This document shows positions 10,194 to 29,453 of a stretch of 29,453 bases of DNA, piece by piece; positions within the stretch are counted from its first letter, which is position 1; each line of letters starts with the position of its first letter. Position numbers and translations under genes: made by a program. The stretch covers positions 1 through 29,453 of IMG/VR virus record IMGVR_UViG_3300020221_000083. One strand, 5' to 3'. This DNA is from a virus. Below the pieces are notes generated by a model that did no database searches, was not told where the DNA came from, and saw nothing but the letters and a program-made list of their open reading frames with translations.

Positions 10194-11327
10194 TTATGCA
10201 TCTGCAGCAGCGTCAGCGTATGCAATTGCATCCTCTTCTTCCCATTGAAGTCCGAAGCGAACGAATACTGTGTATTCAATTGTATCTTTCTTCGCTACGT
10301 ACTCACGGTTTACAGTAATATCTCTTTGGAATCCCCATACACGGTTGGCAGGGAATGTCAAATCAATATAACCTTCTGGATAGTAAGGAACTTCCTGAAC
10401 TTCGATTCCGAGAACACGAGTTGTACGTGCTCCGCCGAAGGTCTGTCCGATACCATCAAGATAGTTCTGACGGTTTGCTTGAGTGCTTCCTGGAACTTGT
10501 CCAGCAAACGCTTCAGCAACAGCATCAGCGAGTGTACCGTTATTCTTAACGATACCGCCGAATGCATCTGTACCTGCATAGAACTTAAGATTGTTCTTAA
10601 GTGCACGGTACTTACGTGGCATTGCATTGATGATGCCTTGCATGACGCTAGGTGTCCAAGCATTATCTGCTACGGTCACTACTGCCTCGTGTGCATCTCC
10701 GTTTGTCTTTACCTTATTGATAAAGCCTGGCATGATTGACAAGAATGCTCCTGTTGCACCATCACCATTGATAGCGAGATCTTCGATATCATTTGCGAAT
10801 GCGTTGGTCATTAAGCGTACCAAGTGATCTTCTAGAGCATCACCCTCGACACCATCTTCCAAAGATTCTGAAGTTACTTCCCAATCAAGACGAATCTTCT
10901 TGGTAGTAAGTTCAACCTTAGAGAAGGTTGCGCCAGTGTTTGTGTAGTTACCAATTGCCTGTGCTGCTGCACGAATTACACGCTCACCTACGTTAATCTT
11001 CTCAAGTTCCATGGAGTTAGCCTTCATTGTTACACGACGGCCATCCTTTGCTAACACTGTAGCGTCCCAAACATAGTCGATAAAACGACGAGCCTGCTCG
11101 GGGCGCAAAATTCCAGAAGCCGCTGAACCACTAGGGTTAACAGCATTTGCTCCGCTAGTTGTTCCAAGCGTTGCTGTTGGAATGTTTCCAAGTGTATTTG
11201 CACCTGGATTTGTTACTCCACCAATTCCGCCTGATGCGAAAGCACCTTGGCCCTGATAAAGACCTGGTGTTGCTCCACCTAGATCTCCAGCAGCGCCTGG
11301 CTGGTTTTTGATTATTTCTTCTGACAT
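10194..11327 (-). CDS. Major capsid protein, HK97 fold
   Basis: The chosen start is ATG at 11327, seven bases after a perfect AGGAGGTGA; a longer reading from 11354 would put this site inside the gene. The product is 377 residues. Residues 1-75 are Gly/Ala/Asn-rich and flexible. The rest carries HK97-fold traits: E-R-V-I-R-A-A-A-Q-A near residue 117, E-V-T-S-E-S-L-E-D near 150, a D-I-E-D-L-A-I-N-G-D-G segment near 180, and V-L-G-I-E-V-Q-E-V-P-Y-Y-P near 300. It directly follows the protease-scaffold gene, as in HK97-like head modules. Codons are richer in C and G at the third position than in the accessory block, as expected for high expression. Confidence 0.95.
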   Translation of the reverse strand: MSEEIIKNQPGAAGDLGGATPGLYQGQGAFASGGIGGVTNPGANTLGNIPTATLGTTSGANAVNPSGSAASGILRPEQARRFIDYVWDATVLAKDGRRVTMKANSMELEKINVGERVIRAAAQAIGNYTNTGATFSKVELTTKKIRLDWEVTSESLEDGVEGDALEDHLVRLMTNAFANDIEDLAINGDGATGAFLSIMPGFINKVKTNGDAHEAVVTVADNAWTPSVMQGIINAMPRKYRALKNNLKFYAGTDAFGGIVKNNGTLADAVAEAFAGQVPGSTQANRQNYLDGIGQTFGGARTTRVLGIEVQEVPYYPEGYIDLTFPANRVWGFQRDITVNREYVAKKDTIEYTVFVRFGLQWEEEDAIAYADAAADA

Positions 11328-18766: not shown

Positions 18767-20800
18767 CTACTTGTTTATTTTAATTTCACAGTAGTCTGTG
18801 GTGCAATATGACTCTCCCTGAGCCTCAAGATTATCTACACCGTCATAAATAGCACTAAAATCAATATGCTTTAATTTACCAATATATGACTCATACTCTT
18901 CTTCTGTAATTTGAGTATATGGCTGCTGTGGATAAACAGTATTCCCCATTGGAAGGAATGAGACTGCTTTTAATTGTCCCTCGTGCATGTGCAGTGCTGG
19001 AACAACATGCTTTGACTCTGTTTCCTTATCAAATGAAAGAGTTACAGAAACTCCGTTATCTGACCAATATTTTTGAGCAGTTGCAGCAAGAGCAATCTTC
19101 TCAAACAGCGTAACATCCTTTTCAGATCTTCTATGTCCTGACTTAATTGGAAAGTACACAACTGATGTATTTGCTGATACTACATCGTCTTCAATTGTGT
19201 ACCCTGCTGCTTTGAACAAATGCATCATTGGATCTGTGTTTCCAAATCGAACTGCACGAAGGAAAAAGTTTCCTCCAGGTCCCCAGTGAACTCCAGGAGT
19301 TGCACCAGAAAGAATTGATACTGACCCTGATGGCTTAACTGTTGTTACACGAATTGATTCACGAACACATAACCACTCTGAATAAGAATGATCATATTTA
19401 CGAATTGTGGTATATCCCTCATCCATCCATTCACGAACTGATGGTAAACCATTTTGATCTGCAAATGAAGCAATACCAGTTAGGGATGTGCCAATGCGAC
19501 GATTGCGTTGCATGATACCGTTTGTTTGTGGCCAGTGTGTTGGAACAAGTGTTACAGTCTTTCCATAAAGATATGCGAACTTCAGGGTACGCAGGAAGTC
19601 CTCCTTGGATTCATGACGATTTAAGTGCACTTCTACAAGTGTACATAGTTCGTATGATTCCAATGGCTGCTCCGCACATGGGTTGAATCCCATCACACGA
19701 TAATCCTTACCGTCTGGCGCATCCTTTAGTCGTCCATAATTACGAGCAACATCAAGCCAGATAAAACCTGGTTCTCCGTTTTCTGTAATTAAATCTACAT
19801 AGTCTTCGTACCTTGTTCCTACTTCTGCTGAAATAGAATTATTAGACATCCAAGCCCAGCCTGGATTTTCTGGATCAAATGAGTTTCTTTCTGGAAATGA
19901 CTCAGAGTTCTTCAAATTCATAAACACATCATCTCCAGCACTACCCAAAGCAAGGGTTGCTGACCTTCTAACATTTCCTGAAACTACACAAGTTCCAATC
20001 AAATTGACTAGGTCTACAATGGCACGAGAGTCTAGTGTTTCTCCAGCCCTGGAGGGGATCACACGGTCTATCTGGCTGTGCAACCTGATAAGAGGTGCAG
20101 GACCTGATGCAACGCCTCCAAAGCCCTTTATAGGGGCTCCTAGGGGCCTAATTAGATCATAGTTAAACTTCTGTATATTTTGATTTGGCCTGAGATATGA
20201 ATTTATCAAAACTCTCACCGACTCAACCCATCCTTCACGAGTGTCTGGAATTTCATAAATCTGTTCTGGCTCTGTAGGGCTATAAATTGAGAACCCCTTG
20301 TCTTGTCCAATAGTATCAAAACCAACACCAATACCAAGCATTAGGGCATCCATTACCCATGCAAACAATGCACCTGGATCATTTTTGTCAAGGTCCTTTG
20401 TTGATACCATTGCACAGTTTTGAAGTGCTGCAGAGTTCTTTTTCTCCATAGTCATAGGAGTTCCGAATGCCCACATACCACGACCTGGCGGGGTCCACTT
20501 CAAATTAAACATTCTATCAAATGCTTCTTGTGCTGACTTCTGAGCCTTATAGTCATTCCATGGAAGACGATTTTCTTTAGCATGATTTTTTTGAACCGAA
20601 TACATGCCCTCGATTACACGACGACAAACCTCATGCCAGCGTTCTTTAGTTCCATCTTCCTTCATTCGAGAATAAGTACGAATAAAGGTAATTTCTCCAA
20701 GTGAATTTTCTGCTGCATCTTTAAATCCAAATGGACTCTCTACACCTTTATACTTTTCTATAAAATCTTCTGGAAGTTTAAAACTAAAAAAATCTGACAT
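18767..20800 (-). CDS. nrdJ: Adenosylcobalamin-dependent ribonucleoside-triphosphate reductase (class II)
   Basis: The start is ATG 20800, behind AAAGGAC; an upstream extension to 20881 covers the promoter and is rejected. The 677-residue product reduces ribonucleotides to deoxyribonucleotides. The cysteines match the monomeric Lactobacillus leichmannii enzyme in spacing: C129 (in Q-N-C-A-M-V), C375 as thiyl residue in N-P-C-A-E, C386 eleven residues later, and a C-terminal pair C666/C671 five apart. The segment V-K-P-S-G-S-V-S-I-L-S-G-A-T-P-G-V-H is typical of the active-site barrel. The gene appears complete at slightly less than the usual 700-740 residues. It needs host or environmental B12. 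It has its own promoter between the accessory block and the LamG-like gene. Confidence 0.95.
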   Translation of the reverse strand: MSDFFSFKLPEDFIEKYKGVESPFGFKDAAENSLGEITFIRTYSRMKEDGTKERWHEVCRRVIEGMYSVQKNHAKENRLPWNDYKAQKSAQEAFDRMFNLKWTPPGRGMWAFGTPMTMEKKNSAALQNCAMVSTKDLDKNDPGALFAWVMDALMLGIGVGFDTIGQDKGFSIYSPTEPEQIYEIPDTREGWVESVRVLINSYLRPNQNIQKFNYDLIRPLGAPIKGFGGVASGPAPLIRLHSQIDRVIPSRAGETLDSRAIVDLVNLIGTCVVSGNVRRSATLALGSAGDDVFMNLKNSESFPERNSFDPENPGWAWMSNNSISAEVGTRYEDYVDLITENGEPGFIWLDVARNYGRLKDAPDGKDYRVMGFNPCAEQPLESYELCTLVEVHLNRHESKEDFLRTLKFAYLYGKTVTLVPTHWPQTNGIMQRNRRIGTSLTGIASFADQNGLPSVREWMDEGYTTIRKYDHSYSEWLCVRESIRVTTVKPSGSVSILSGATPGVHWGPGGNFFLRAVRFGNTDPMMHLFKAAGYTIEDDVVSANTSVVYFPIKSGHRRSEKDVTLFEKIALAATAQKYWSDNGVSVTLSFDKETESKHVVPALHMHEGQLKAVSFLPMGNTVYPQQPYTQITEEEYESYIGKLKHIDFSAIYDGVDNLEAQGESYCTTDYCEIKINK

Positions 20801-20837
20801 AATATTTGATCGTCCTTTCAAAACGGAATAAGTGTTA

Positions 20838-20846
20838 ATTATAGCA
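20838..20846 (-). promoter_or_regulatory. Extended -10 promoter of ribonucleotide reductase gene
   Basis: TGCTATAAT followed by TAAC lies about 37 bases upstream of the chosen ATG at 20800. This supports the shorter start, because the longer reading frame would overlap the promoter. Confidence 0.55.
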
Positions 20847-20894
20847 GAGTTTTGCAAAAAGTAAAACTCTCCTCTAAACAACAGGTTGAGAGTT
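20846..20894 (-). terminator. Paired hairpins between SDR and reductase genes
   Basis: On the minus strand AACTCTC pairs with GAGAGTT, followed by TTACTTTTTG, like a weak terminator of the oxygenase operon. The middle arm GAGAGTTTT can instead pair with AAAACTCT further on, forming an alternative hairpin that abuts the reductase -10 box. Confidence 0.35.
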
Positions 20895-20899
20895 AAAAA

Positions 20900-21562
20900 C
20901 TATTTACCACTAAGTATATGATTTATCTCTATATGATTTATGTTAACATGTTTAGGTAGACTTGCTACCCATCTTATAGACTCAGCCATATCTTCAGCAG
21001 TTATGGCAATGTCTCTTTTTTCTTCTTGTGTATCAATTGTTCCTGGGCAAATTTCAGTAACTTTAATTCCATACTCTGGAAACTCCAGCCTCATTGTATC
21101 AACAAGTGCCATCATTCCTCTTTTAGCATTTGTATAGTTTCCTCCTGACCTATAAGCAAACTTTCCTCCAAGAGAACTAATGAATATAATGGTGGCAGAC
21201 TCTGATTTTTTCATACAGGGAACAAACAATTGAGACAAATACATTGGCCCAGATACATTTATATCATACGCTCTTCTAAAATTATCCATTGTCTCATTTA
21301 TAATGCTAGTTGGGCCAGAGCCTCCTCCTGCATTGTTCACTAGAAGATCTAGGGTTATATCTTTGTATTTATCATAAAACTTCTTTATTTCGTTAGCACT
21401 TGTAATGTCCATCTGATAAACTTCTACGCTATCTCCAACAAGTCCTGAAACTTTTGACAAGTCTCTTGATACAGCAATAACCTTATATCCACTTTCAGAT
21501 AAAAGTTTTACAGTTGCATAACCAACACCTTTGCTTGCTCCTGTAACAATTGCTGTTTTCAC
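20900..21562 (-). CDS. Short-chain dehydrogenase/reductase
   Basis: This 220-residue protein belongs to the classical NAD(P)-dependent SDR family. The Rossmann signature T-G-A-S-K-G-V-G is at residues 7-14, N-N-A-G-G at 76-80, the catalytic serine at 129-130, and Y143-x3-K147 completes the Ser-Tyr-Lys set. The P-G-T-I-D-T segment after the fifth strand is also usual. The SDR interconverts alcohols and ketones/aldehydes; the substrate is unknown. GTG 21562 overlaps the oxygenase stop by one base (TAGTG), so it is co-translated as the last gene of the oxygenase operon. It could act on a hydroxyl group made by those enzymes, but that is inference. Confidence 0.92.
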   Translation of the reverse strand: MKTAIVTGASKGVGYATVKLLSESGYKVIAVSRDLSKVSGLVGDSVEVYQMDITSANEIKKFYDKYKDITLDLLVNNAGGGSGPTSIINETMDNFRRAYDINVSGPMYLSQLFVPCMKKSESATIIFISSLGGKFAYRSGGNYTNAKRGMMALVDTMRLEFPEYGIKVTEICPGTIDTQEEKRDIAITAEDMAESIRWVASLPKHVNINHIEINHILSGK

Positions 21563-22254
21563 TACATAGACCTATGAAATTCCATATTGTTGTGAATCCA
21601 GTGAGATGGAACCATATACTTAAACTTACTTTTTACCAAATGTGCTGTGTGATAGTATGGAGCAGAAGATGGAAAAATAATAATGCTTCCTGCTTTTGGC
21701 TTAATTCCAAAATCAATTATTTTTTTGTTTCGTTCATCTTCATAGTCTTCAATAGGTCTTATTGCATCATTGTTTTCATAATCATTTAAACTAAAAGATA
21801 TTTCTCCGCCCTCAAAGTCATCATTTAGATACATAACTAAAGAATATCTTAATGTTTTATCACCGTCAAGTTGATCAAAATGAGAACCCATATAGGTTCC
21901 AGTATAATATTTTTTTATGTTAAAGACTGGAAAAAGATTTGGCTCTTCATAGTCACCAATAGATTCTGCATAGTCTTTGGACACAGAATAGAACGAGTCC
22001 ATAATATTGTTATAAACAAAAAGCATTTTTTCTTTATACAAACCGTCAAGGTTATTAATAAGTTTTAAATCAAATGAGACTGTGTCTCCGTATATACATT
22101 CTTTGTCATTTGACGCTGTCCAAGTATCCCACATTTTTTTGCCGTCATTTTTGTATACATCTTCTAATTCAGACAAAGAACTTATCACTTCATCTAAATT
22201 TTTTACAGCATCGTCATAATAATATACCTTGTCGTGAAGTATGGTTTTAATCAT
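21562..22254 (-). CDS. 2-oxoglutarate/Fe(II) dioxygenase 1, paralog of next gene
   Basis: I start this at ATG 22254, which overlaps the previous stop (TAATG), rather than at TTG 22266. The 230-residue product has the double-stranded beta-helix core of the prolyl-4-hydroxylase-like family: iron ligands H125-x-D127, M-Y-L-N-D-D-F-E-G-G-E following it, distal H202, and K212 ten residues on at the place where 2-oxoglutarate is usually held by arginine. P-K-A-G-S-I-I-I-F-P precedes the distal histidine, as in the family. It is about 40 percent alike by eye to the upstream neighbour over the whole length, with matching K-V-Y-Y-Y near residue 9 and N-I-K-K-Y before the first iron ligand. Substrate unknown. 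Confidence 0.9.
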   Translation of the reverse strand: MIKTILHDKVYYYDDAVKNLDEVISSLSELEDVYKNDGKKMWDTWTASNDKECIYGDTVSFDLKLINNLDGLYKEKMLFVYNNIMDSFYSVSKDYAESIGDYEEPNLFPVFNIKKYYTGTYMGSHFDQLDGDKTLRYSLVMYLNDDFEGGEISFSLNDYENNDAIRPIEDYEDERNKKIIDFGIKPKAGSIIIFPSSAPYYHTAHLVKSKFKYMVPSHWIHNNMEFHRSM

Positions 22255-22883
22255 TAGTGAATCCAATGCTGTGGAACCATTATTTTTTCGCCACTTTTAA
22301 CTAGGTGGGCGGTGTGATGATATGGTGGAGATGGTGGAAATACAATAACGCTCCCTGCTTTTGGCTTAATAGCAAAGGTAAAATTTTTATTTTTTTCCGC
22401 TTCTAGAAAGTCTGGCTCAGGGCTTGAATTTTTTAGAACTCCATCTGGAGAAGCAATAGTAAAAGATATTTCTCCTCCCTCATAATTGTCATTTAAGTAC
22501 ATAACAAAAGAGACTTTTAGTCTTTCATCTCCTTCTTGCTGATCAAAATGTGCACCCATAAATGTTCCTGGCTGATACTTCTTAATAGGGTACTGAGGAA
22601 ATAGTTTAGGCTCATCTGTAATTCCTTGTGCCTTAGCGTAATCTTTTGCAACATCATCAAATGCTTTTCTTAATGTTTCATAAATATACTTATTTTTTTC
22701 ATCAGCATCTGGAGTCAGTGCAATAGTTTTATCTGTTCCATAGACATAGTGTTGACCGCTACAGGCCATCCATTCGCCCCAGGGATCCTTGTTGTCATTC
22801 TCAATTGCGTCAACAAGTTTCTTTGGGTCTTCAATTACATTTGTGTAATAGTAAACCTTTTCTTCAAGTATTTCTTTGTCCAT
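22254..22883 (-). CDS. 2-oxoglutarate/Fe(II) dioxygenase 2
   Basis: This 209-residue protein begins with ATG behind GAGGAGA. Iron ligands are H112-x-D114 (in G-A-H-F-D), with the family segment M-Y-L-N-D-N-Y-E-G-G-E next and the distal ligand probably H190 in Y-H-H-T-A-H. K200 occupies the usual arginine position. The C-terminus, V-P-Q-H-W-I-H, matches V-P-S-H-W-I-H of the downstream paralog, so this pair arose by local duplication. The first 95 residues, with W-G-E-W and Y-V-Y-G, are helical and may shape the substrate pocket. No transmembrane segment or signal peptide is visible. The protein target or small-molecule substrate cannot be told from sequence. Confidence 0.9.
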   Translation of the reverse strand: MDKEILEEKVYYYTNVIEDPKKLVDAIENDNKDPWGEWMACSGQHYVYGTDKTIALTPDADEKNKYIYETLRKAFDDVAKDYAKAQGITDEPKLFPQYPIKKYQPGTFMGAHFDQQEGDERLKVSFVMYLNDNYEGGEISFTIASPDGVLKNSSPEPDFLEAEKNKNFTFAIKPKAGSVIVFPPSPPYHHTAHLVKSGEKIMVPQHWIH

Positions 22884-22894
22884 TTTGTGTCTCC

Positions 22895-23557
22895 TCAGTA
22901 TTTATTCTTCTCATAAAAACCTGTTACCTTCATAAATCCCACAGTAACATACCTTATGGGTCCTTCTCCTACAAACCTTACTCCATGCTCATACTCTTCA
23001 TTGCCTGGAAAAATAAGCAATGTCCTTGGCTTTGGTCTCAAGTCTGAGTTTTCCTTATTTTTAAAAAATAAAGTCCCGTCCTTGTAGTCGTCATTGATAT
23101 ATAGTATAGCAGCATATCTAATAGATGGATCTGTATGCTGATCTGTATGAGACTTAAGTTCAACACCCGCCTGCATCCTTTGGAGCGTTCCAAACCCAGC
23201 AAGTTCTAAAGATGGATCTGCCTTTTCTAATAGTCTTCCAAGCCTACCTTGTAAGGTTATGCTTATCTCTTCTGTTGTAATGTTTAGGTTTTTATCTGCC
23301 CAATTTTGAGTGATTTCAAATTTTCCTTCTGCTACAAGATTTTCTACATCGTCCCTTCCAAATTTTTCCATGCAAAATCTAGCAAGATTTTTTGTATATT
23401 CTATTGACCAGTCTTCTTCTGGCGTTCTATTAATTATGTTTAGGATGGTCTGCAACTCTTCTTCGGTCATAAAGTCTTCTATAGACAAAATATGATCATG
23501 AAAAACTTCAGTATTGTATCCAGCGTTGTCGAATTCCTTTTTTAAAAAAACCTCCAT
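22895..23557 (-). CDS. 2-oxoglutarate/Fe(II) dioxygenase 3
   Basis: This 220-residue protein has ATG 23557 directly after the upstream stop, behind AGAGGAG. The iron site is H137-T-D139 with distal H191, and R202 is in place for 2-oxoglutarate. I-L-Y-I-N-D-D-Y-K-D-G-T replaces the more common E-G-G-E form of the conserved loop, a real difference from its neighbours. L-I-F-P-G-N-E-E-Y-E-H-G-V is typical of P4H-like enzymes. The N-terminal 90 residues are acidic and helical, unlike the other enzymes here, so it is a separate lineage and not a recent duplicate. Its function is unknown. Confidence 0.9.
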   Translation of the reverse strand: MEVFLKKEFDNAGYNTEVFHDHILSIEDFMTEEELQTILNIINRTPEEDWSIEYTKNLARFCMEKFGRDDVENLVAEGKFEITQNWADKNLNITTEEISITLQGRLGRLLEKADPSLELAGFGTLQRMQAGVELKSHTDQHTDPSIRYAAILYINDDYKDGTLFFKNKENSDLRPKPRTLLIFPGNEEYEHGVRFVGEGPIRYVTVGFMKVTGFYEKNKY

Positions 23558-24304
23558 CTACAACTCCTCTACCTTGTACCTATTTCCGTTAGCATCAAGT
23601 TTCCACCCTTGCTTTAATAGTTCTTGCCACTCTGCTCTCTCTATTTCCTGCTTGGCTCTTGTCTCTTTCATTTCTGCTGCCCAAGCATCTCTTAGTTCTT
23701 GTGGGTATGCGTCTTCTTCACGATCATCCCAGAATGAACCTATGGTATACCTAACTCCTTTAGTTATAAGAGTTACTTCATGCATATTATTAAATCCCCC
23801 GTCAAATGCAGCAAGCATTCCAACTTTAGGTTGAATATTTATTTCTTGATCTGGGAACTGTAAAAGCCCTCCCTCAAAATTATCATTTAAATATAAGAAT
23901 GCTGCATATCGACTTCTAGTAAAAGCACCAGAATGTCCATGCTCATCTGTATTGTCAGAATGTTTTCTTGCATAAGCACCTGGCTCCCATTTCTGAGTAT
24001 GATATCCAATTTGAGAAATTATCTTAGGATCGAGGTCATGAACGCTTGCAACAGCATCAATGATTCCTTGTTTTATTTGTGAAAATACATCGCTTGGCAA
24101 TCCTTCATTTTCTACATGCTCATCATTATCTTGTGGCAGAACTGAAGAATAAGACTCATAGAAAGATATGGGCATCCAGTTAATCAACCCAAGTTCTGCA
24201 TGCTTATCTAAAACCTTTACAAGTTTTGCAGCAGTTTCTGCATCAATAAAGTTTTCATAAATAACTATATCTTTAGTTATTCTTTTTTTGTTTTCTAGAT
24301 TCAT
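23558..24304 (-). CDS. 2-oxoglutarate/Fe(II) dioxygenase 4
   Basis: This 248-residue protein has an ATG overlapping the previous stop by four bases (ATGA) behind AAGGA. The iron site is H115-S-D117, then a long insert with E-H-G-H-S-G and F-L-Y-L-N-D-N-F-E-G-G. The distal ligand is H175, with canonical R185 ten residues later (G-V-R-Y). After the catalytic core comes a charged helical tail of about 50 residues (E-M-K-E-T-R-A-K-Q-E and W-Q-E-L-L-K-Q-G-W), absent from most neighbours, which may mediate assembly. It is co-transcribed within the accessory operon. The substrate is unknown. Confidence 0.9.
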   Translation of the reverse strand: MNLENKKRITKDIVIYENFIDAETAAKLVKVLDKHAELGLINWMPISFYESYSSVLPQDNDEHVENEGLPSDVFSQIKQGIIDAVASVHDLDPKIISQIGYHTQKWEPGAYARKHSDNTDEHGHSGAFTRSRYAAFLYLNDNFEGGLLQFPDQEINIQPKVGMLAAFDGGFNNMHEVTLITKGVRYTIGSFWDDREEDAYPQELRDAWAAEMKETRAKQEIERAEWQELLKQGWKLDANGNRYKVEEL

Positions 24305-25158
24305 TTTATCCTTCTTTCTTTTTCAGTATTCCATTTATTTGGATTTGCAATTCTAAATGCCTCTAAAATTCCTGGCTGCATTTCTTGCCATTTTTCCTTG
24401 CCATATTTTTCTTCATTTTCAAACCAATCAGGACTTCCCAAAGAATATTTCATCCAATACATTCTTGCCAAGTATTTTGATTTTTTATATGAGGGCATAA
24501 CTCCATGAAGATATATAGAATTTTCAGACATCAAGAGTTCTGGATGACCAGAAGGGAAAACAACCATATCTCCAGCCTCTGGCTTATACATATAGGCTTC
24601 TCCATTTGCTATGAAATCAATCTCTCCACCTTCATAGTCATCATTAAAATATGTTAAGGCAGTAATTGCAAATTTATATCCTGGACTTGTAATTGGCTCT
24701 CGTATATAGTCTGTATGGTATGTCATTGCTACCACATCCTCAACGTTTTCATGATATCTTGCTATTGATGGACCGCTAATCGTCCACTCTTTTACATCAT
24801 AATTTTTTTTATCTTTAATATTTGGAACAATTTTATTTTTATCAAAATCAACATTGTTTTTTAAGACATAGTCTTCTGTTGCTTTATGAAAATTAACAAA
24901 TATTTCTAAAAGAATATCCTTATGCACTTTTTCTTTTTCTGTTTTTGTTTCTATTTTTTTTATTTCTTTAACTGGTAACATATCGCCAAAATTTTTAAAA
25001 GTTGGGGAAAGATATTCTCCAAAATGTGACCACTTAGACCAGGGGGCAAGAAGTCCATCTGTTCCATCTGACTCTTTTAATGTTTGATATATATAGTCAA
25101 TGTCTTTATACAAACCTTTATATACAACAATTTTTGGATATATCTCTACAGCATTCAT
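24301..25158 (-). CDS. 2-oxoglutarate/Fe(II) dioxygenase 5
   Basis: At 285 residues this is the longest of the eight. The ATG overlaps the preceding stop by four bases. The iron site is H148-T-D150 and the conserved loop is T-Y-F-N-D-D-Y-E-G-G-E. The distal ligand is H218 (Y-L-H-G-V), with K228 at the usual +10 place and R232 nearby as an alternative 2-oxoglutarate partner. The N-terminal 140 residues contain a lysine-rich coiled segment near 62-82. The C-terminus (P-D-W-F-E-N-E-E-K-Y and N-P-N-K-W-N) is an extension beyond the usual core. A perfect 24-base repeat is shared with the next upstream gene. Confidence 0.88.
   Translation of the reverse strand: MNAVEIYPKIVVYKGLYKDIDYIYQTLKESDGTDGLLAPWSKWSHFGEYLSPTFKNFGDMLPVKEIKKIETKTEKEKVHKDILLEIFVNFHKATEDYVLKNNVDFDKNKIVPNIKDKKNYDVKEWTISGPSIARYHENVEDVVAMTYHTDYIREPITSPGYKFAITALTYFNDDYEGGEIDFIANGEAYMYKPEAGDMVVFPSGHPELLMSENSIYLHGVMPSYKKSKYLARMYWMKYSLGSPDWFENEEKYGKEKWQEMQPGILEAFRIANPNKWNTEKERRIK
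24622..24645 (-). repeat. 24-base direct repeat, copy 1, in dioxygenase 5
   Basis: This copy is identical to 25413-25436 and encodes the conserved N-D-D-Y-E-G-G-E loop of the oxygenase. A copy with two mismatches is at 26863-26886 in dioxygenase 7. Confidence 0.8.
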
Positions 25159-25916
25159 TGACCATTCCTAATTCCATTGTCTGGGTCCCAGGCTCTTATT
25201 GACTCATCGTTAGGAAAAATTCTATGATATTTTTTATTAAAGTCTGGCTTTTCTTCTCCAGTGTGCCCTAGAATTTCCCAAAAGAATGGGCAGGTATATC
25301 TAGTACCATTTTTAATTTTTGTTACTCCATGAACATAATTCATATCCCCTGGGAAAAAATATGCCGAACCTCTTTTTGGTTTAAACTGTATTCCCTGATT
25401 AGGAAAATACAACTCTCCACCTTCATAGTCATCATTTATATAGAATAAACTTGCAATATCATAGTTTGGAAAATCATTAGGAGTTCCTGCATCTGGGCCA
25501 GAGTGCAACTCTTTGTCTGCATGGGGCAACTGATATTGGCCAGGATTCCACTTTACAATAGTTTGCCCAGTAGGTTGAACACTAACATTAAAAAATTTTT
25601 CAATAACTGGCTGAAGTTTATTAAACAAGCCAACAATTACTGGAACAATATTTGGATCATTTTGGTTAAGAGATGGCGCACTTGCTACTCTATCTTTCCA
25701 GTAGTCTGCATCATAAATGACAGTGCCATTTTCATTTTTATGACTTTGGGTAACATCCCAGATAGTTATGCTTCGTGCTGCATTGTCTAAAAAGTCAACC
25801 TCTGCTTGAGTCATAAAGTTTTCTAACTCAATAATATTTTCTGATCCGCTTCCAAAAAAGCCAGAAGGTGTGCTTGATGGCTTTCTCACTACGGTTATGG
25901 CTTCTTGTGAATTCAT
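25155..25916 (-). CDS. 2-oxoglutarate/Fe(II) dioxygenase 6
   Basis: This 253-residue protein opens the long accessory operon. Its ATG lies six bases after TGATATAAT with no ribosome binding site, so translation is probably leaderless. The iron site is H132-A-D134 (Q-L-P-H-A-D), followed by an insert with N-D-F-P-N-Y, then F-Y-I-N-D-D-Y-E-G-G-E. The distal ligand is H196 (Y-V-H-G-V) with R206 exactly ten residues on, giving a fully canonical active site. P-K-R-G-S-A-Y-F-F-P-G precedes it. The C-terminal 40 residues are charged and rich in N, D and P. It probably hydroxylates a protein side chain or small substrate, but neither is identified. Confidence 0.9.
   Translation of the reverse strand: MNSQEAITVVRKPSSTPSGFFGSGSENIIELENFMTQAEVDFLDNAARSITIWDVTQSHKNENGTVIYDADYWKDRVASAPSLNQNDPNIVPVIVGLFNKLQPVIEKFFNVSVQPTGQTIVKWNPGQYQLPHADKELHSGPDAGTPNDFPNYDIASLFYINDDYEGGELYFPNQGIQFKPKRGSAYFFPGDMNYVHGVTKIKNGTRYTCPFFWEILGHTGEEKPDFNKKYHRIFPNDESIRAWDPDNGIRNGQ
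25413..25436 (-). repeat. 24-base direct repeat, copy 2, in dioxygenase 6
   Basis: Identical to 24622-24645. The repeats fall in the same codons of neighbouring paralogs and could serve as recombination points. Confidence 0.8.
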
Positions 25917-25922
25917 ATTTAA

Positions 25923-25931
25923 ATTATATCA
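25923..25931 (-). promoter_or_regulatory. Extended -10 promoter, leaderless start of main oxygenase operon
   Basis: TGATATAAT is followed by exactly six bases and the ATG of dioxygenase 6. No ribosome binding site lies between. It would drive six oxygenases and the SDR as one transcript. Confidence 0.58.
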
Positions 25932-25951
25932 CAGGCTTTATATCCTATAAT

Positions 25952-26668
25952 TTACATACCTTTCTCAGTATTGTCTTCTACATAAAGTTTTAAAGTTTTT
26001 ACTTCATGGGAGCCAAGGCTTTCTCCCTTTTCATTTATAGCATCTCTGTACCAGTCTGTCCATTGTCCAGAACTATTAACCTCTTGTGCTGCTTGTCCAT
26101 ACTTAATGTTTGCTTGTTCTCTTACTCTACCCTCATCTTCATAATTAACAATTTGAATTTTAGTGTTATTTAAATTTGTTAAAGATATTGGAATAATTGT
26201 TGCTATTGGAGTTCCTGCTTTTATGGTAATTGTTTCATTTGCTTTTTTTGCTTTGATTGCCAATGGTAAGGGATTTTCATAAAAAGATGTACTTATTAGA
26301 TTGGACATTGTTTCAAAATTTTCATTAAAATAGTTAACAGGATTAATCGTCCATATGCTAACATCTTTGTCTGTTTTAAAAACTAAGCCTGTATTAAAAC
26401 TTATAGATGACTGCCCCCTACCTGAATAAGAGCCATCTGGGCCAGATATTATATTTATGTGCTGATCGGTTTGATCATTTACGCCATCCCAAATAAATTG
26501 AATATCTTCTTCACAAAACATATTCCACCCAACAACATTTGCCTGAGTTACGGGGAAACATCTATATGCATGGTTTTCTGATGTTGCATCCATCCAATCT
26601 CTTTTAATTGACATTGGACTAATGTTAAATTTAATACCACGCATTTTTTCTATAGATATATTGAACAC
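25952..26668 (-). CDS. DUF6065-like protein
   Basis: GTG 26668 overlaps the upstream stop (TAGTG). ATG 26644 in the same frame could also be used and gives a 230-residue protein. The family resemblance is in R-x-W-M-D-A-T near residues 24-30, A-Y-R-C-F-P-V near 34-40, G-W-N-M near 48-51, and E-T-I-T-I-K-A-G-T-P-I-A-T-I-I-P near 160-175, all hallmarks I associate with DUF6065. I know no established biochemical role. The 255-residue protein encoded two genes upstream shares the T-I-x-A-G-T-P and P-x-N-x-F segments, so both are probably one fold. They alternate with two oxygenases, which suggests a joint pathway. It is the last gene before the leaderless promoter of the next operon. Confidence 0.75.
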   Translation of the reverse strand: MFNISIEKMRGIKFNISPMSIKRDWMDATSENHAYRCFPVTQANVVGWNMFCEEDIQFIWDGVNDQTDQHINIISGPDGSYSGRGQSSISFNTGLVFKTDKDVSIWTINPVNYFNENFETMSNLISTSFYENPLPLAIKAKKANETITIKAGTPIATIIPISLTNLNNTKIQIVNYEDEGRVREQANIKYGQAAQEVNSSGQWTDWYRDAINEKGESLGSHEVKTLKLYVEDNTEKGM

Positions 26669-27351
26669 TATTCATCTGCCCACTTAGGGTCATACATTTC
26701 TGGAGTATGAAATTTTTTGCTATAGTCTAGCATGGTTACAATTGAATACTTTGTTCCAGAATGAACTGGCATTGCTTGATGAGGATACATAAAGTTGGAT
26801 GGGAATATGTAAAGATCTCCAGCCTTTGGTTTAATATTTAAATTTTGTAGTCTAAAGAACAACTCCCCACCTTCATAATCATCATTAACATAAGCAACTA
26901 AAGATACTGTACAATTGTAAGAAAAGCCATGATCGTGATGCTCCATAAAGTGTTGACCTGGACCGTACTTAATAAAATTAAATGCTTCCCAGTATTTAAG
27001 TGGCATAATGTTATACATTTTCCTGTAGTCTTCTACTGCTGCATATTGTGGATCATATACATCTTGCCAAAGTTCTTGAAGTTTTATTGAATCTTCACTT
27101 TTGTCTTGCTCAATGTCAGTTTTCTTAAATTTAAAATCTACACAGTCTCTATACTCAGGCATAAGTTGCTGATATCCAACATATGCTGGCATCCAGTGAT
27201 ATCTTTTGCCTTCAGGAGATAACTCTCCATATTCAGCGACTGATCCTAGGCTGCTTTCAAGTCGATTTATTACGTCAAACTCTTTTTTAATTACTCCTCT
27301 ATAACAGATAATTCCGTTACCAAGATCTTCTTTTTCTGTCCATGATTGCAT
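26668..27351 (-). CDS. 2-oxoglutarate/Fe(II) dioxygenase 7
   Basis: This 227-residue protein has its ATG behind TAGGAGATA, 11 bases after the upstream stop. The iron site is H138-H-D140, the loop is V-A-Y-V-N-D-D-Y-E-G-G-E, the distal ligand is H181 in Y-P-H-Q-A, and K191 is at the +10 place. It is clearly paralogous to dioxygenase 8: V-D-F-x-F-K near residue 71, E-A-F-N-F-I/V-K-Y before the first iron ligand, and H-G-x-x-Y-N-C-T-V-S after it are shared. The DUF6065-like gene follows immediately. Lysine in place of arginine is not proof of inactivity, since some family members use lysine to hold 2-oxoglutarate. Confidence 0.9.
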   Translation of the reverse strand: MQSWTEKEDLGNGIICYRGVIKKEFDVINRLESSLGSVAEYGELSPEGKRYHWMPAYVGYQQLMPEYRDCVDFKFKKTDIEQDKSEDSIKLQELWQDVYDPQYAAVEDYRKMYNIMPLKYWEAFNFIKYGPGQHFMEHHDHGFSYNCTVSLVAYVNDDYEGGELFFRLQNLNIKPKAGDLYIFPSNFMYPHQAMPVHSGTKYSIVTMLDYSKKFHTPEMYDPKWADE

Positions 27352-27362
27352 TTGTATATCTC

Positions 27363-28130
27363 CTATTTATACTCTCTGCGTGACCAAACTTTTTTAATAT
27401 AAACTCCACCGTCAGGCTGACGATAGAACTTTGCGTTATCTACCATTTTACCATATATAGAAGACTGATCTAAAATCTCTATACTGTGGTCCCAGTTTTC
27501 TCTTTTAAAAGGAAGGATTTGTAAATATGGTGTCCCTGCTGGGATTGTTCCTTCCCATCCCTCCGCAATAAAAAATGGAAAACTGCCAAGAAGATGAACT
27601 TTGTCTGAATCAACAATGCCAGTGGTGTTTAAAAATGGAAGGTCAAACCTATTCATTGGGGTCATAAACAATGCACTATATCCCTCTGGCAACTCTAAGC
27701 CCCATGGAGAACTCCAAGCAAAATGATGCTGATAGTATCCTTTAGGATGTTCAAATTGTGGCATTGGTGATCTTTGAGTACAAAAATCTTTATACTTAGG
27801 ATCATTTATTGTGACATTAATTACCCCTTGAGAATTTTTAGCAAAAATTAAATCGCAAGGAGTTTTAAATACATACCCTGTTGCAAATGCATCCATAATT
27901 GCAGGACATGCTTTCCATGTTGGAATTTTCCCATAGTCGTCAGTTGTGCCTTCTTTAGGGAAAGGACAAACCTCTTTTGGTGCTTTCCAATATTCTCCAT
28001 TTGGCATTTTTGCAAATCTGTCTGCATCTTTGTACCAATCTGGGATTTCTTTTTGTGTAGGAACAGGAACAGAAATATCTTCTTTATTTATCCAAGGCCT
28101 GAAGGATGTAAACTTTGCAATTAGAGACAC
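27363..28130 (-). CDS. DUF6065-related protein of unknown function
   Basis: GTG 28130 overlaps the upstream stop by one base (TAGTG) and has AGGAC nine bases ahead. The 255-residue protein has P-x-x-I-P-D-W-Y-K-D near residues 26-34, W-K-A-C-P-A-I-M-D-A near 72-81, P-E-G-Y-S-A-L-F-M-T-P-M-N near 148-160, T-G-I-V-D-S-D near 168-175 and T-I-P-A-G-T-P-Y-L-Q-I-L-P-F-K near 195-209. The last two blocks match DUF6065 in order, so I call it a distant member. No metal site or nucleotide-binding loop is visible. It is placed between two paralogous oxygenases. The family has no function known to me. Confidence 0.7.
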   Translation of the reverse strand: MSLIAKFTSFRPWINKEDISVPVPTQKEIPDWYKDADRFAKMPNGEYWKAPKEVCPFPKEGTTDDYGKIPTWKACPAIMDAFATGYVFKTPCDLIFAKNSQGVINVTINDPKYKDFCTQRSPMPQFEHPKGYYQHHFAWSSPWGLELPEGYSALFMTPMNRFDLPFLNTTGIVDSDKVHLLGSFPFFIAEGWEGTIPAGTPYLQILPFKRENWDHSIEILDQSSIYGKMVDNAKFYRQPDGGVYIKKVWSRREYK

Positions 28131-28843
28131 TACTTGTGTCCTAGTTCATTAATATCTGTCATTACAACAACACAATATTTACTTCCTTTTTTCATTGGCA
28201 AAGACGCATGCTCATAAATATAGTTTGATGGGCAAAGGATAATATCTCCTATTTTTGGAGTATGTGTATAGTTATCCATTCTTGGAAACTTGATTTCTCC
28301 ACCCTCATAGTCTTCATTTATATAAATAACAGCAGACACTGTACAGTTGTACATTGGGCCATGATCAGCATGAATATTGAAATGTGTTCCTTCTCCTTCA
28401 TACTTTACAAAATTAAATGCTTCATAGTATATTACATTAATTCCCCAATACCGTGCATAATCATCAACGCAAAACTTTAACTTTTGATATATCTCTTCAT
28501 GCAAGTCAATTAATTCAGCATTGTGTTCATCTCTTGGACCTAAATTTTCTTGTTTAAATCTAAAGTCTACAGCATCTCTAGCCTTTTTAATTGGCACATC
28601 TGAGTTAGTTACTTTTGCTTCTGACCATTTATATTTGCCATTACTACCCAAGTTAGATTCAAGAATTTTAATATATCTTTCAGAATCTTCTTTTGAAAAT
28701 ACATTTCTATAAAGATTAATTCCTAATGCGGGGTTTTCAACTAAAATATTATTTCCAATAGTTTTTGATGGATATCTATTTAGAGACGTCTCTGATCTAT
28801 CTTTAGTAAACCAAGGCGTTTCATTTTCATCATAGATTGTCAT
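28130..28843 (-). CDS. 2-oxoglutarate/Fe(II) dioxygenase 8
   Basis: This 237-residue protein starts the first accessory operon behind AAAGGAATAAT and a TGATATACT promoter. The iron site is H158-A-D160, followed by Y-N-C-T-V-S and V-I-Y-I-N-E-D-Y-E-G-G-E. The distal ligand is H212 in Y-E-H-A-S and K222 lies ten residues on. Its N-terminal 45 residues are longer than in its closest paralog, dioxygenase 7, and look flexible. Position +27 after the distal histidine is the end of the protein, so there is no C-terminal extension. It lies upstream of the DUF6065-like gene, with TAGTG linking the two. The substrate is unknown. Confidence 0.9.
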   Translation of the reverse strand: MTIYDENETPWFTKDRSETSLNRYPSKTIGNNILVENPALGINLYRNVFSKEDSERYIKILESNLGSNGKYKWSEAKVTNSDVPIKKARDAVDFRFKQENLGPRDEHNAELIDLHEEIYQKLKFCVDDYARYWGINVIYYEAFNFVKYEGEGTHFNIHADHGPMYNCTVSAVIYINEDYEGGEIKFPRMDNYTHTPKIGDIILCPSNYIYEHASLPMKKGSKYCVVVMTDINELGHK

Positions 28844-28905: not shown

Positions 28906-29334
28906 TTAGATTAATGTTATTTCTCTAGTTGTTTCATTATATGAAACTGTTGCTCCTCTAATTGCAAAAGGGCACTTTACAAGAAAAACTTCACCAGAAA
29001 ATGCTGCATCATACAAAGATGCTCTTGCTGAGTCAGACTCAGCGCTTAGTCTAAGAATTATTTTATTATCGCACAAAAATGCATATTGTTTATACGCATC
29101 TTTTTCTTCTTGCGATAGTTCAGAAAATCCTGAATTTGCAGTTCCATCAAAAGATGTTCCGTTCCAAGTAGCACCCTTGGTTGCTGTTGATTTGTAGTCA
29201 GATATGTTCATACCGATGAAATGAAGACCTTTATCCCACTCAGAGTCAAGAGATGCCCTTACTGCTTCGTCAGTTTGAATTACCGAAAGTACCTCGTAAG
29301 TATCTGCAGTATCTTTAACAATTATTGCATACAT
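28906..29334 (-). CDS. Small protein of unknown function, perhaps virion-associated
   Basis: This 142-residue protein starts with ATG behind AAAAGGAGA. The start is preceded by a TGATATACT box. The sequence contains T-W-N-G-T-S-F-D-G near residues 56-64, a phrase common in small tail-fibre-associated phage proteins, then a charged helical part (L-S-Q-E-E-K-D-A-Y-K) and an alternating segment F-S-G-E-V-F-L-V-K. The end, Y-N-E-T-T-R-E-I-T-L-I, looks like a terminal strand. No signal peptide or enzyme motif is visible. I do not recognise the family; a minor virion role is one guess from the tail-fibre-like phrase. Confidence 0.6.
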   Translation of the reverse strand: MYAIIVKDTADTYEVLSVIQTDEAVRASLDSEWDKGLHFIGMNISDYKSTATKGATWNGTSFDGTANSGFSELSQEEKDAYKQYAFLCDNKIILRLSAESDSARASLYDAAFSGEVFLVKCPFAIRGATVSYNETTREITLI

Positions 29335-29371: not shown

Positions 29372-29453
29372 TTAGCACCCACAATGACCGCAGCAAGCGG
29401 GACATGCTTGCCAACAATAATTTCTAGTACATCCACTGCAACTACTTTGGGGG
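29372..29453 (-). CDS. C-terminal end of a cysteine-rich protein (start outside window)
   Basis: The last 26 codons of one minus frame encode a cysteine-dense tail with eight cysteines (C-x2-C-x4-C-x3-C-x2-C-C-x2-C-x-C, including a Tyr-Cys-Trp), ending with TAA at 29372. It stops just before the promoter of the next gene, as expected for a real gene end. A second frame is also open here and ends at 29353, which would run through the promoter; I prefer the cysteine-rich one for that reason. Such spacing could bind metal or form disulfides. Too little is visible for a firm call. Confidence 0.4.
   Translation of the reverse strand, partial: PQSSCSGCTRNYCWQACPACCGHCGC

Follow-up and report, generated by a model that had tools for sequence, protein, structure and literature searches.

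A phage array of 2-oxoglutarate-dependent oxygenase genes occurs together with a proline/phenylalanine repeat in a putative adhesin and probably modifies it

Why would a phage carry eight different 2-oxoglutarate (2OG)/Fe(II)-dependent oxygenases side by side, and on what would they act? This question is raised by the virus record IMGVR_UViG_3300020221_000083, whose full 29,453 bases are the window analysed here, and in which eleven consecutive genes (A to K), all on the minus strand, run from position 28843 to 20900. An earlier reading made from the letters of the window (the sequence-only reading) had recognised eight of these genes as distinct oxygenases, had proposed an ordered modification pathway acting on a virion protein, nucleotide, glycan or host metabolite, and had held that the substrate could not be read from sequence. 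We argue here that the array is probably an exchangeable cassette that hydroxylates a PFFP repeat at the tip of the neighbouring adhesin. The substrate can in fact be inferred just past the edge of the window, where a Pro/Phe-repeat adhesin sits. The reading narrows to the adhesin repeat because array and repeat go together, and of the substrates proposed earlier it is the virion protein that is favoured.

The identity of the eight oxygenases (A, C, E, F, G, H, I and J) was well supported, all of them scoring above the curated cut-off of PF13640. In their alignment the HxD motif and the distal His are invariant, and a Lys or Arg, the 2OG ligand, lies 10–11 residues past the distal His in each of the eight. 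The four ligand residues are kept in 581 of 590 distinct orthologues (sequences from related loci with a score of at least 90 and a length of 180–360 aa), the remaining nine showing gaps at the key column and no substitutions, and all ligands are retained in 107 of 107 orthologues of C. Among the pairs compared, I and J are 45% identical and A and C 40%; judged by sequence, the eight are distinct paralogues. The central claim of the sequence-only reading, eight distinct 2OG-Fe(II) oxygenases among eleven consecutive genes, thus stands: profile matching puts all eight in the superfamily, and none has lost its iron ligands. The further suggestion that differing N-termini mean differing substrates does not necessarily follow, since many positions within one polypeptide would fit equally well. 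The Tet_JBP profile matched E alone, at 21.6 bits and under its cut-off of 34.9. GenBank phage records matching at an expect value of 1e-5 or better numbered 14 for E and 215 for C, all below 60% identity, and there were none for D at that limit; among the 25 of the 215 rows listed, C is at most 38% identical to its cyanophage and pelagiphage relatives. Separately, the profile of phrog_3531, a phage family called 'ferrochelatase', matches A and C at its end, so that some phage 'ferrochelatase' labels may in fact denote 2OG oxygenases.

The likely chemistry was approached through a structural model of C, built from a 42-sequence alignment (predicted local distance difference test score, pLDDT, 93.9) and compared with solved structures by VIA re-ranking of Foldseek's top 1000. 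The best match was an algal prolyl 4-hydroxylase (P4H) solved with a (Ser-Pro)5 peptide (3gze; VIA Z 20.7, root-mean-square deviation (rmsd) 2.1 over 173 residues), and the model also matched HIF-type prolyl hydroxylases (Z ~19–20), a Pseudomonas P4H (Z 19.0) and the viral collagen P4H of PBCV-1 (5c5t; Z 17.9). Prolyl hydroxylases make up nearly all of the 50 structural rows listed, and the solved sequences nearest to C are bacterial P4Hs. As modelled, C is a double-stranded beta-helix close to known P4Hs. Since C matches prolyl hydroxylases best, proline would be its likeliest target.

Relatives of the locus were collected by keeping the best 80 loci each for a portal query and for a gene B query. 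The order A-B-C-D-E-(F)-G-H-I/J-(K)-RNR, where RNR is the ribonucleotide reductase gene, recurs in the 80 loci found with B, as far as each reaches; F, J and K vary among them, and K is present or absent by lineage. A near-identical 52-kb contig, G027, also carries the array, which is therefore not an artefact of one assembly. Order is altered in more diverged relatives (A-C-D-B-E in G004 and G022), and in many relatives the D-E gap is sized for an extra gene of ~151 aa that is absent in the window; in G047 and G006 a gene of this size does lie between D and E (L170:9526-9981) and has neither a Pfam nor a PHROG match. A PF13640 search of 47 records, representing 48 of the 160 loci and picked for length, found matches in 42, at least five in 33 and at least six in 32, counted per record and not per array. 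Of the records searched, 26 had been chosen by portal alone; as 12 of these carry at least five oxygenases and five carry none, the array occurs commonly in this phage group, though not in every member. Furthermore, eight is not without precedent as a number: 24 oxygenases are reported in a cyanophage and eight in pelagiphages (see below), and record G049 (that of L403) has 11 PF13640 matches, nine of them over the cut-off, in 18.7 kb, denser than the array of the window.

In long relatives, tail-fibre genes flank the array on one side and RNR on the other. Upstream of the small gene 'up', which precedes the array (Table 1), comes a gene for a fibronectin-III (FN3) protein, and Pfam fn3 was found in both array-bearing examples tested. 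In relatives the C-terminus of this protein is a Pro/Phe repeat of the PFFPPFFPFFP type, for example PFFPPFFPFFPPFFP. The repeat block is 85 residues long in the median and consists of 56% Phe and 43% Pro (it was obtained from 41 of 42 distinct sequences), and many of the proteins end in a Cys-rich tail. The G027 protein has 52 FFP-type motifs in its visible 255-residue part; in the window the edge cuts the gene, whose last 26 residues are encoded by bases 29372-29452, and the PFFP repeat itself falls beyond the edge. FN3 domains and position suggest that this repeat protein is an adhesin. The gene before it in G047 (L170:2661-5129) encodes a tail-fibre protein with the major tropism determinant domain Mtd_N. 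In array-less relatives the same adhesin ends either in GAF repeats plus a domain that looks Hint-like by eye, or in FSFTP-type repeats, and at most one oxygenase is found at that place. The slot before RNR is filled in several of them by two small genes and one B-like gene, and in G021 by other genes. At L202:2134-3648 and similar loci, GAFGAF repeats are followed by the Hint-like (hedgehog/intein-type, by eye) domain, and self-processing of the adhesin tip that bears it is possible.

The repeat and the array were found to go together among adhesin relatives. The 121 adhesin hits, equivalent to 42 distinct sequences with the array and 36 among the others, came from loci fetched by portal, by B and by the B-like gene of array-less genomes, and from whole records; some are duplicated, and loci had been selected by array state and not by the kind of repeat. 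The profile used to count neighbouring oxygenases was made from the eight oxygenases of the window itself. The FFP repeat is present in 58 of 58 adhesin hits with at least three oxygenases within 13 kb downstream and in 0 of the 63 others, of which 59 have no oxygenase there and four have one. Moreover, among 85 loci with RNR in view the array accompanies 29 of 29 PFF-type adhesins, 0 of 44 of the GAF type and 0 of 12 others; each of these 29 repeat loci has at least four oxygenases, a number reached by none of the 56 loci without the repeat. An RNR protein tree was poorly resolved and gave three supported pairs (p = 0.25); the RNR DNA tree (59 rows), used afterwards, gave seven independent pairs on well-supported branches, all seven concordant (p = 0.0156).

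The same association emerged from the repeat alone. A scan of viral contigs, blind to oxygenases, for DNA that codes for PFFPPFFP returned at least 120 stretches, 118 of them counted as new loci, and Pro-Thr repeats (at least 120 loci) and GAF repeats (101 loci) served as controls. Oxygenases occur at 3.29 per 10 kb at PFFP loci, as against 0.08 at Pro-Thr and 0.07 at GAF loci. Some PFFP loci share a contig (e.g. L425 and L442), hence the dereplicated figures that follow, for loci with at least 3 kb downstream. At least one oxygenase was found in 62 of 70 PFFP, 6 of 59 Pro-Thr and 1 of 45 GAF loci, at least two in 57, 2 and 0, and at least five in 32, 0 and 0, respectively; for two or more, Fisher p was 2.9e-21 against Pro-Thr and 1.9e-20 against GAF. 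At 32 repeat loci the fetched stretch showed no oxygenase; for 22 of these Pfam found one in another part of the record, 21 of them over the cut-off. This gives 108 of 118 repeat loci with an oxygenase overall, a figure that mixes two detectors (our own profile and Pfam) and includes one match below cut-off. Pfam found an oxygenase in 4 of the 48 Pro-Thr records checked (48 of 120 loci).

Neither is the association confined to one kind of adhesin. In 36 repeat loci without FN3-adhesin homology and with at least 3 kb downstream, an oxygenase is present in 29 and two or more in 25. Across the 97 loci with enough scaffold in view, the repeat is joined to 14 scaffold clusters (10 of them single loci), and for 13 of these clusters the record contains an oxygenase, in one case by a match that falls under the cut-off. 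PASTA is one such scaffold: of two proteins tested, one scored over the Pfam cut-off and one below. Where 5 kb lay downstream of the repeat (47 loci), C was found in 40, E in 40, D in 37 and K in 8; C, D and E also lie beside repeat adhesins without FN3 homology. In larger sets they are joined by A, B, F, G, H, I, J and K, and by our own profile a repeat locus has as many as eleven oxygenases.

B and D, two of the three genes of the array that are not oxygenases, both belong to the cassette. The model of B (pLDDT 78.6) gave a VIA Z of 11.2 (rmsd 2.9, 126 aligned residues), and all 50 rows listed were dUTPases; the best Foldseek expect value was 3.2e-3, with none at 0.001 or better. By this model B has a dUTPase fold. 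The catalytic motifs of dUTPases comprise the Asp of motif 3, its Tyr, Arg-Ala-Gln and Arg-Ser-Ser. In the alignment of B, read by eye, D174 and D176 (the Asp pair of motif 3) are invariant, and the Tyr, Arg and RSS motifs were not seen. A canonical dUTPase therefore seems unlikely, most catalytic motifs being absent by eye, and B differs from the dUTPase family also in lying within an oxygenase cassette. B is 84–100% identical in the best 80 relatives; a PDB sequence search for B and D returned weak ribosomal-protein matches only. B-like genes are found near GAF adhesins too (53 of 101 GAF loci). In the halovirus HRTV-17 (L741:2679-8824) such a gene, encoded on the opposite strand, is flanked by class II RNR and by a putative adhesin rich in Gly, and in the cyanophage S-RIM4 (L740:3681-8762) it lies near RNR genes, with neither an annotated fibre nor an oxygenase in view. 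B-like proteins may accordingly be chaperones or presenters for adhesin tips, or partners of RNR. DUF6065, the family of D, occurs in many Proteobacteria (including Xanthomonas), Planctomycetota and others (L235-L353), mostly as a lone gene. A scan of at least 119 cellular loci, 116 of them with a DUF6065 hit, showed no recurring partner, the largest neighbour cluster covering seven loci, and the attempt to derive the function of DUF6065 from cellular neighbourhoods was given up. DUF6065 was not found by name in the literature searched; the dUTPase-like model of B would be the first structural hint for phrog_7084/DUF6065.

As we infer it, up to eight prolyl-hydroxylase-like oxygenases would have as their target the PFFP repeat at the tip of the adhesin. 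Many repeat prolines would be hydroxylated, perhaps by position or by spacer type, and B and D (of the phrog_7084/DUF6065 type), sometimes with the dehydrogenase K, might assist the oxygenases. An insoluble Pro/Phe tract could in this manner become a stiff, soluble or host-binding rod, and the repeat tip and its enzymes would be swapped between phages as a single module. The genes probably do act together, as one cassette, but the ordered pathway of the sequence-only reading is not evident from these data.

Several points weigh against this proposal. Eight enzymes for one repeat looks excessive, and their division of labour is left without explanation. Eight of the 70 dereplicated repeat loci have no oxygenase in view, and in whole records 10 of 118 loci have none; three of these are on contigs of 19, 37 and 38 kb, and the other seven on contigs of ~12 kb or less. 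The adjacency of adhesin and cassette, and their joint transfer, could inflate the association. A P4H-like fold was modelled for C alone, the other seven oxygenases being placed by profile, and the modified residue could be Phe instead of Pro. B-like genes lie near RNR in S-RIM4 and HRTV-17, and B may therefore belong to nucleotide metabolism; moreover, cellular DUF6065 genes lie beside such oxygenases in 1 of 116 loci by our own profile. Finally, A is present with 26 of 29 mixed-spacer repeats and 1 of 18 pure-PP repeats, but these are raw counts with few independent changes, and so is the link between spacer grammar and extra enzymes: a C tree of 40 rows showed three changes in A, four in grammar and one supported pair, and spacer grammar against enzyme set was rejected as evidence.

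A more specific picture, which we regard as tentative and rather doubtful in its entirety, is a mussel-foot-like oxidised tip, in which an exchangeable module would pair a Phe-Pro repeat with a matching set of P4H-like oxygenases, eleven at most, and with a protein of dUTPase fold turned to a new use. This protein would present or clamp the repeat, and a dense hydroxyproline pattern, possibly with oxidised Phe as well, would set host binding in many uncultured phages.

Alternatively, cassette and tip may travel as one island near the tail genes, the oxygenases acting on a host surface glycan, a lipid or another virion protein. Adhesin and cassette do adjoin, and array-less relatives have the slot occupied by other genes, which makes joint exchange likely; Fe(II)-dependent oxygenases have also been placed among the genes of variable host-recognition islands (in the section of PMC3909814 on these islands). 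Mere co-travel would not lead one to expect that the repeat finds oxygenases on non-FN3 scaffolds (29 of 36 loci) or elsewhere in the record when the fetched stretch has none (22 of 32, 21 over cut-off), nor that GAF-tipped adhesins of the same phage group lack the array, and we consider this explanation improbable.

A metabolic or DNA role is less credible still. In it, 2OG use would steer host nitrogen signalling, or the enzymes would modify or repair DNA or nucleotides, as passages in PMC3037559 and PMC9146016 suggest for cyanophage 2OG oxygenases. The adjacent RNR, the modelled dUTPase fold of B, the B-like genes near RNR in S-RIM4 and HRTV-17 and the sub-threshold Tet_JBP match of E would agree with such a role. 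Neither idea, however, predicts the association of repeat and cassette; RNR is present in array-less relatives too, and the model of C resembles prolyl hydroxylases that act on proteins.

P4Hs classically act on collagen, and a collagen-like (GXY)14 protein is encoded near the fibres in G047 (10470-11201) and 11 other records. Such a protein, or another fibre of the same phage, might be thought the target, the more so as a link between viral collagen and P4H is in print (in the part of PMC9301287 that deals with it). Among 18 records scanned, however, the (GXY)14 protein occurs with the array in four (G004, G006, G043 and G047) and without it in eight (G009, G010, G011, G012, G015, G018, G021 and G024); as it does not track the array it was rejected as the substrate, and we give this target very little credence. 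Equally remote is a target in the repeat Phe or the Cys-rich tail, which the excess of Phe over Pro (56% vs 43%), the Cys-rich tails of many adhesins and a set of eight enzymes suggestive of more than one kind of site might recommend, but for which C has the wrong best structural matches, prolyl hydroxylases, aromatic hydroxylation not being known as a usual reaction of this oxygenase branch.

Table 1. Genes of the oxygenase array and its upstream flank in the window
Feature	Position	Strand	Description	Evidence or remark
Repeat adhesin (putative)	29372..29453	-	Last 26 codons and stop	Translation ends ...QSSCSGCTRNYCWQACPACCGHCGC*, equal to the adhesin end in near-identical contig G027
up	28906..29334	-	142 aa, between adhesin and array	Recurs at same place in many relatives
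A	28130..28843	-	2OG-Fe(II) oxygenase	PF13640 38.8 bits; H158, D160, H212, K222
B	27363..28130	-	phrog_7084 family, predicted dUTPase-like fold	phrog_7084 E 3e-35
C	26668..27351	-	2OG-Fe(II) oxygenase, predicted prolyl-4-hydroxylase-like; recurring core member	PF13640 56.3 bits
D	25952..26668	-	DUF6065 protein, distantly related to B; recurring core member	PF19541 108.6 bits; phrog_7084 E 2.9e-10
E	25155..25916	-	2OG-Fe(II) oxygenase; recurring core member	PF13640 37.2 bits; H132, D134, H196, R206
F	24301..25158	-	2OG-Fe(II) oxygenase; missing in some relatives	PF13640 37.3 bits; H148, D150, H218, K228
G	23558..24304	-	2OG-Fe(II) oxygenase	PF13640 39.3 bits; H115, D117, H175, R185
H	22895..23557	-	2OG-Fe(II) oxygenase	PF13640 37.8 bits; H137, D139, H191, R202
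I	22254..22883	-	2OG-Fe(II) oxygenase	PF13640 44.7 bits; H112, D114, H190, K200
J	21562..22266	-	2OG-Fe(II) oxygenase, paralogue of I; probable start ATG at 22254	PF13640 41.3 bits; H129, D131, H206, K216
K	20900..21562	-	Short-chain dehydrogenase (FabG-like); accessory, in a subset	PF00106 143.6 bits

The eleven genes are tightly packed, with spacing from -13 to +35 bases (Table 1). The gaps of at most 35 bases described earlier were confirmed, and one overlap is larger than had been stated: I and J overlap by 13 bases as annotated, or by one base if J begins at the ATG four codons in, the position at which J aligns with I. A division into two transcription units found no support: all genes lie on a single strand, promoter-like matches are near chance (46 found vs 42.7 expected), and each of the four coding-strand terminator-like sites is within a gene (11 such sites overall vs 5.4 expected). 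The protein encoded by 'up' has neither a Pfam nor a PHROG match at the limits used. Downstream of the array are the genes of a class II RNR and of a 1335-aa protein that no profile matched, together with those of the portal, a head protease and a structural protein of the virion, and with the adhesin end upstream the array does adjoin virion genes, as had been noted. RNR (window 18767-20881) is listed from a TTG, with 704 aa; relatives begin at MSDFF and have 676–677 aa, which makes a true start near 20800 probable. The 30 portal matches listed, of 270 records from several hosts, are all Streptomyces phages at 46–47% identity, which hints at an actinobacterial host.

How does this locus compare with known systems? 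The P4H of PBCV-1 (vCPH) is likewise virus-encoded and related in fold to the model of C; it acts on proline-rich peptides and is a single enzyme in an algal virus, whereas here there are up to eleven oxygenases per locus, DUF6065 partners and a phage adhesin repeat. The algal P4H is a eukaryotic enzyme of cell-wall proteins, with neither an array nor a phage adhesin. Adhesins of the S16 gp38 type have polyglycine-type tip repeats, and thus likewise a low-complexity tip near fibre genes; that tip is Gly-rich, in contrast to the Pro/Phe-rich one described here (array-less relatives bear GAF repeats), and we know of no oxygenases associated with it.

Cyanophage and pelagiphage 2OG-Fe(II) oxygenases (phrog_61 and relatives) belong to the same superfamily as the array, and the relevant passages of PMC9602691, PMC3037559, PMC9146016 and PMC9599517 describe them as genes of metabolism, as genes of DNA repair or as partners of ferrochelatases; control of 2OG levels or DNA repair is likewise proposed in part of PMC5628999. 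The cultured cyanophage S-SCSM1 has 24 2OG oxygenases, described as uninvestigated in function in the passage concerned (PMC9602691), and pelagiphages have eight distinct ones, often near one another, not adjacent, and often beside 'ferrochelatases' (per the corresponding section of PMC9599517). In S-SCSM1, four tandem and three more oxygenases lie within ~9 kb around the short tail fibre, and this fibre (L739:16084-17349) has a long Pro/Arg/aromatic insert of RQPRNFRQPR-like sequence in the middle of the protein. Among five cyanophage oxygenase loci from GenBank, an annotated fibre gene lies next to an oxygenase in S-SCSM1 and ACG-2014f and an S74-domain protein beside one in Sf-FS3, the fibre gene of S-T4 is ~7 kb off, and none is in view in S-SCSM2R; these are anecdotal observations, with fibre sequences from S-SCSM1 only. 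Table 1 of a study of metaviromic islands in marine phages has eight Fe(II)-dependent oxygenase genes filed under host recognition, and its section on them names no substrate, repeat or mechanism (PMC3909814). P4H and viral collagen come up in a paper of 2022 on viruses from the Baltic Sea, which says in that passage that the way viruses use P4H 'remains cryptic' (PMC9301287), EGLN3-like phage proteins are described as widespread in the pertinent part of PMC12774648, and none of the oxygenase terms looked for occurs in a freshwater phage paper (PMC6802176). It is thus already in print that a phage can have many 2OG oxygenases, that these cluster and that they are present in host-recognition islands. 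No paper among those listed in the literature searched, which leaves out the majority of subscription journals and of preprints, names the link to one repeat peptide.

In aquatic phages, genes for 2OG-Fe(II) oxygenases are frequent and lack an explanation, and the tie between array and repeat gives a directly testable question, for which S-SCSM1 is a culturable test case. The adhesin model would supply a mechanism for the earlier remark, in the section of PMC3909814 cited above, that places oxygenases in host-recognition islands, and the cassette is a possible source of prolyl hydroxylases for aromatic-proline repeats. Should the mussel-foot-like picture hold, a large share of the 'mystery' 2OG oxygenases of aquatic phages would serve adhesin maturation and not metabolism. 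If the repeat is the substrate, a common and unexplained class of phage genes would have a concrete job.

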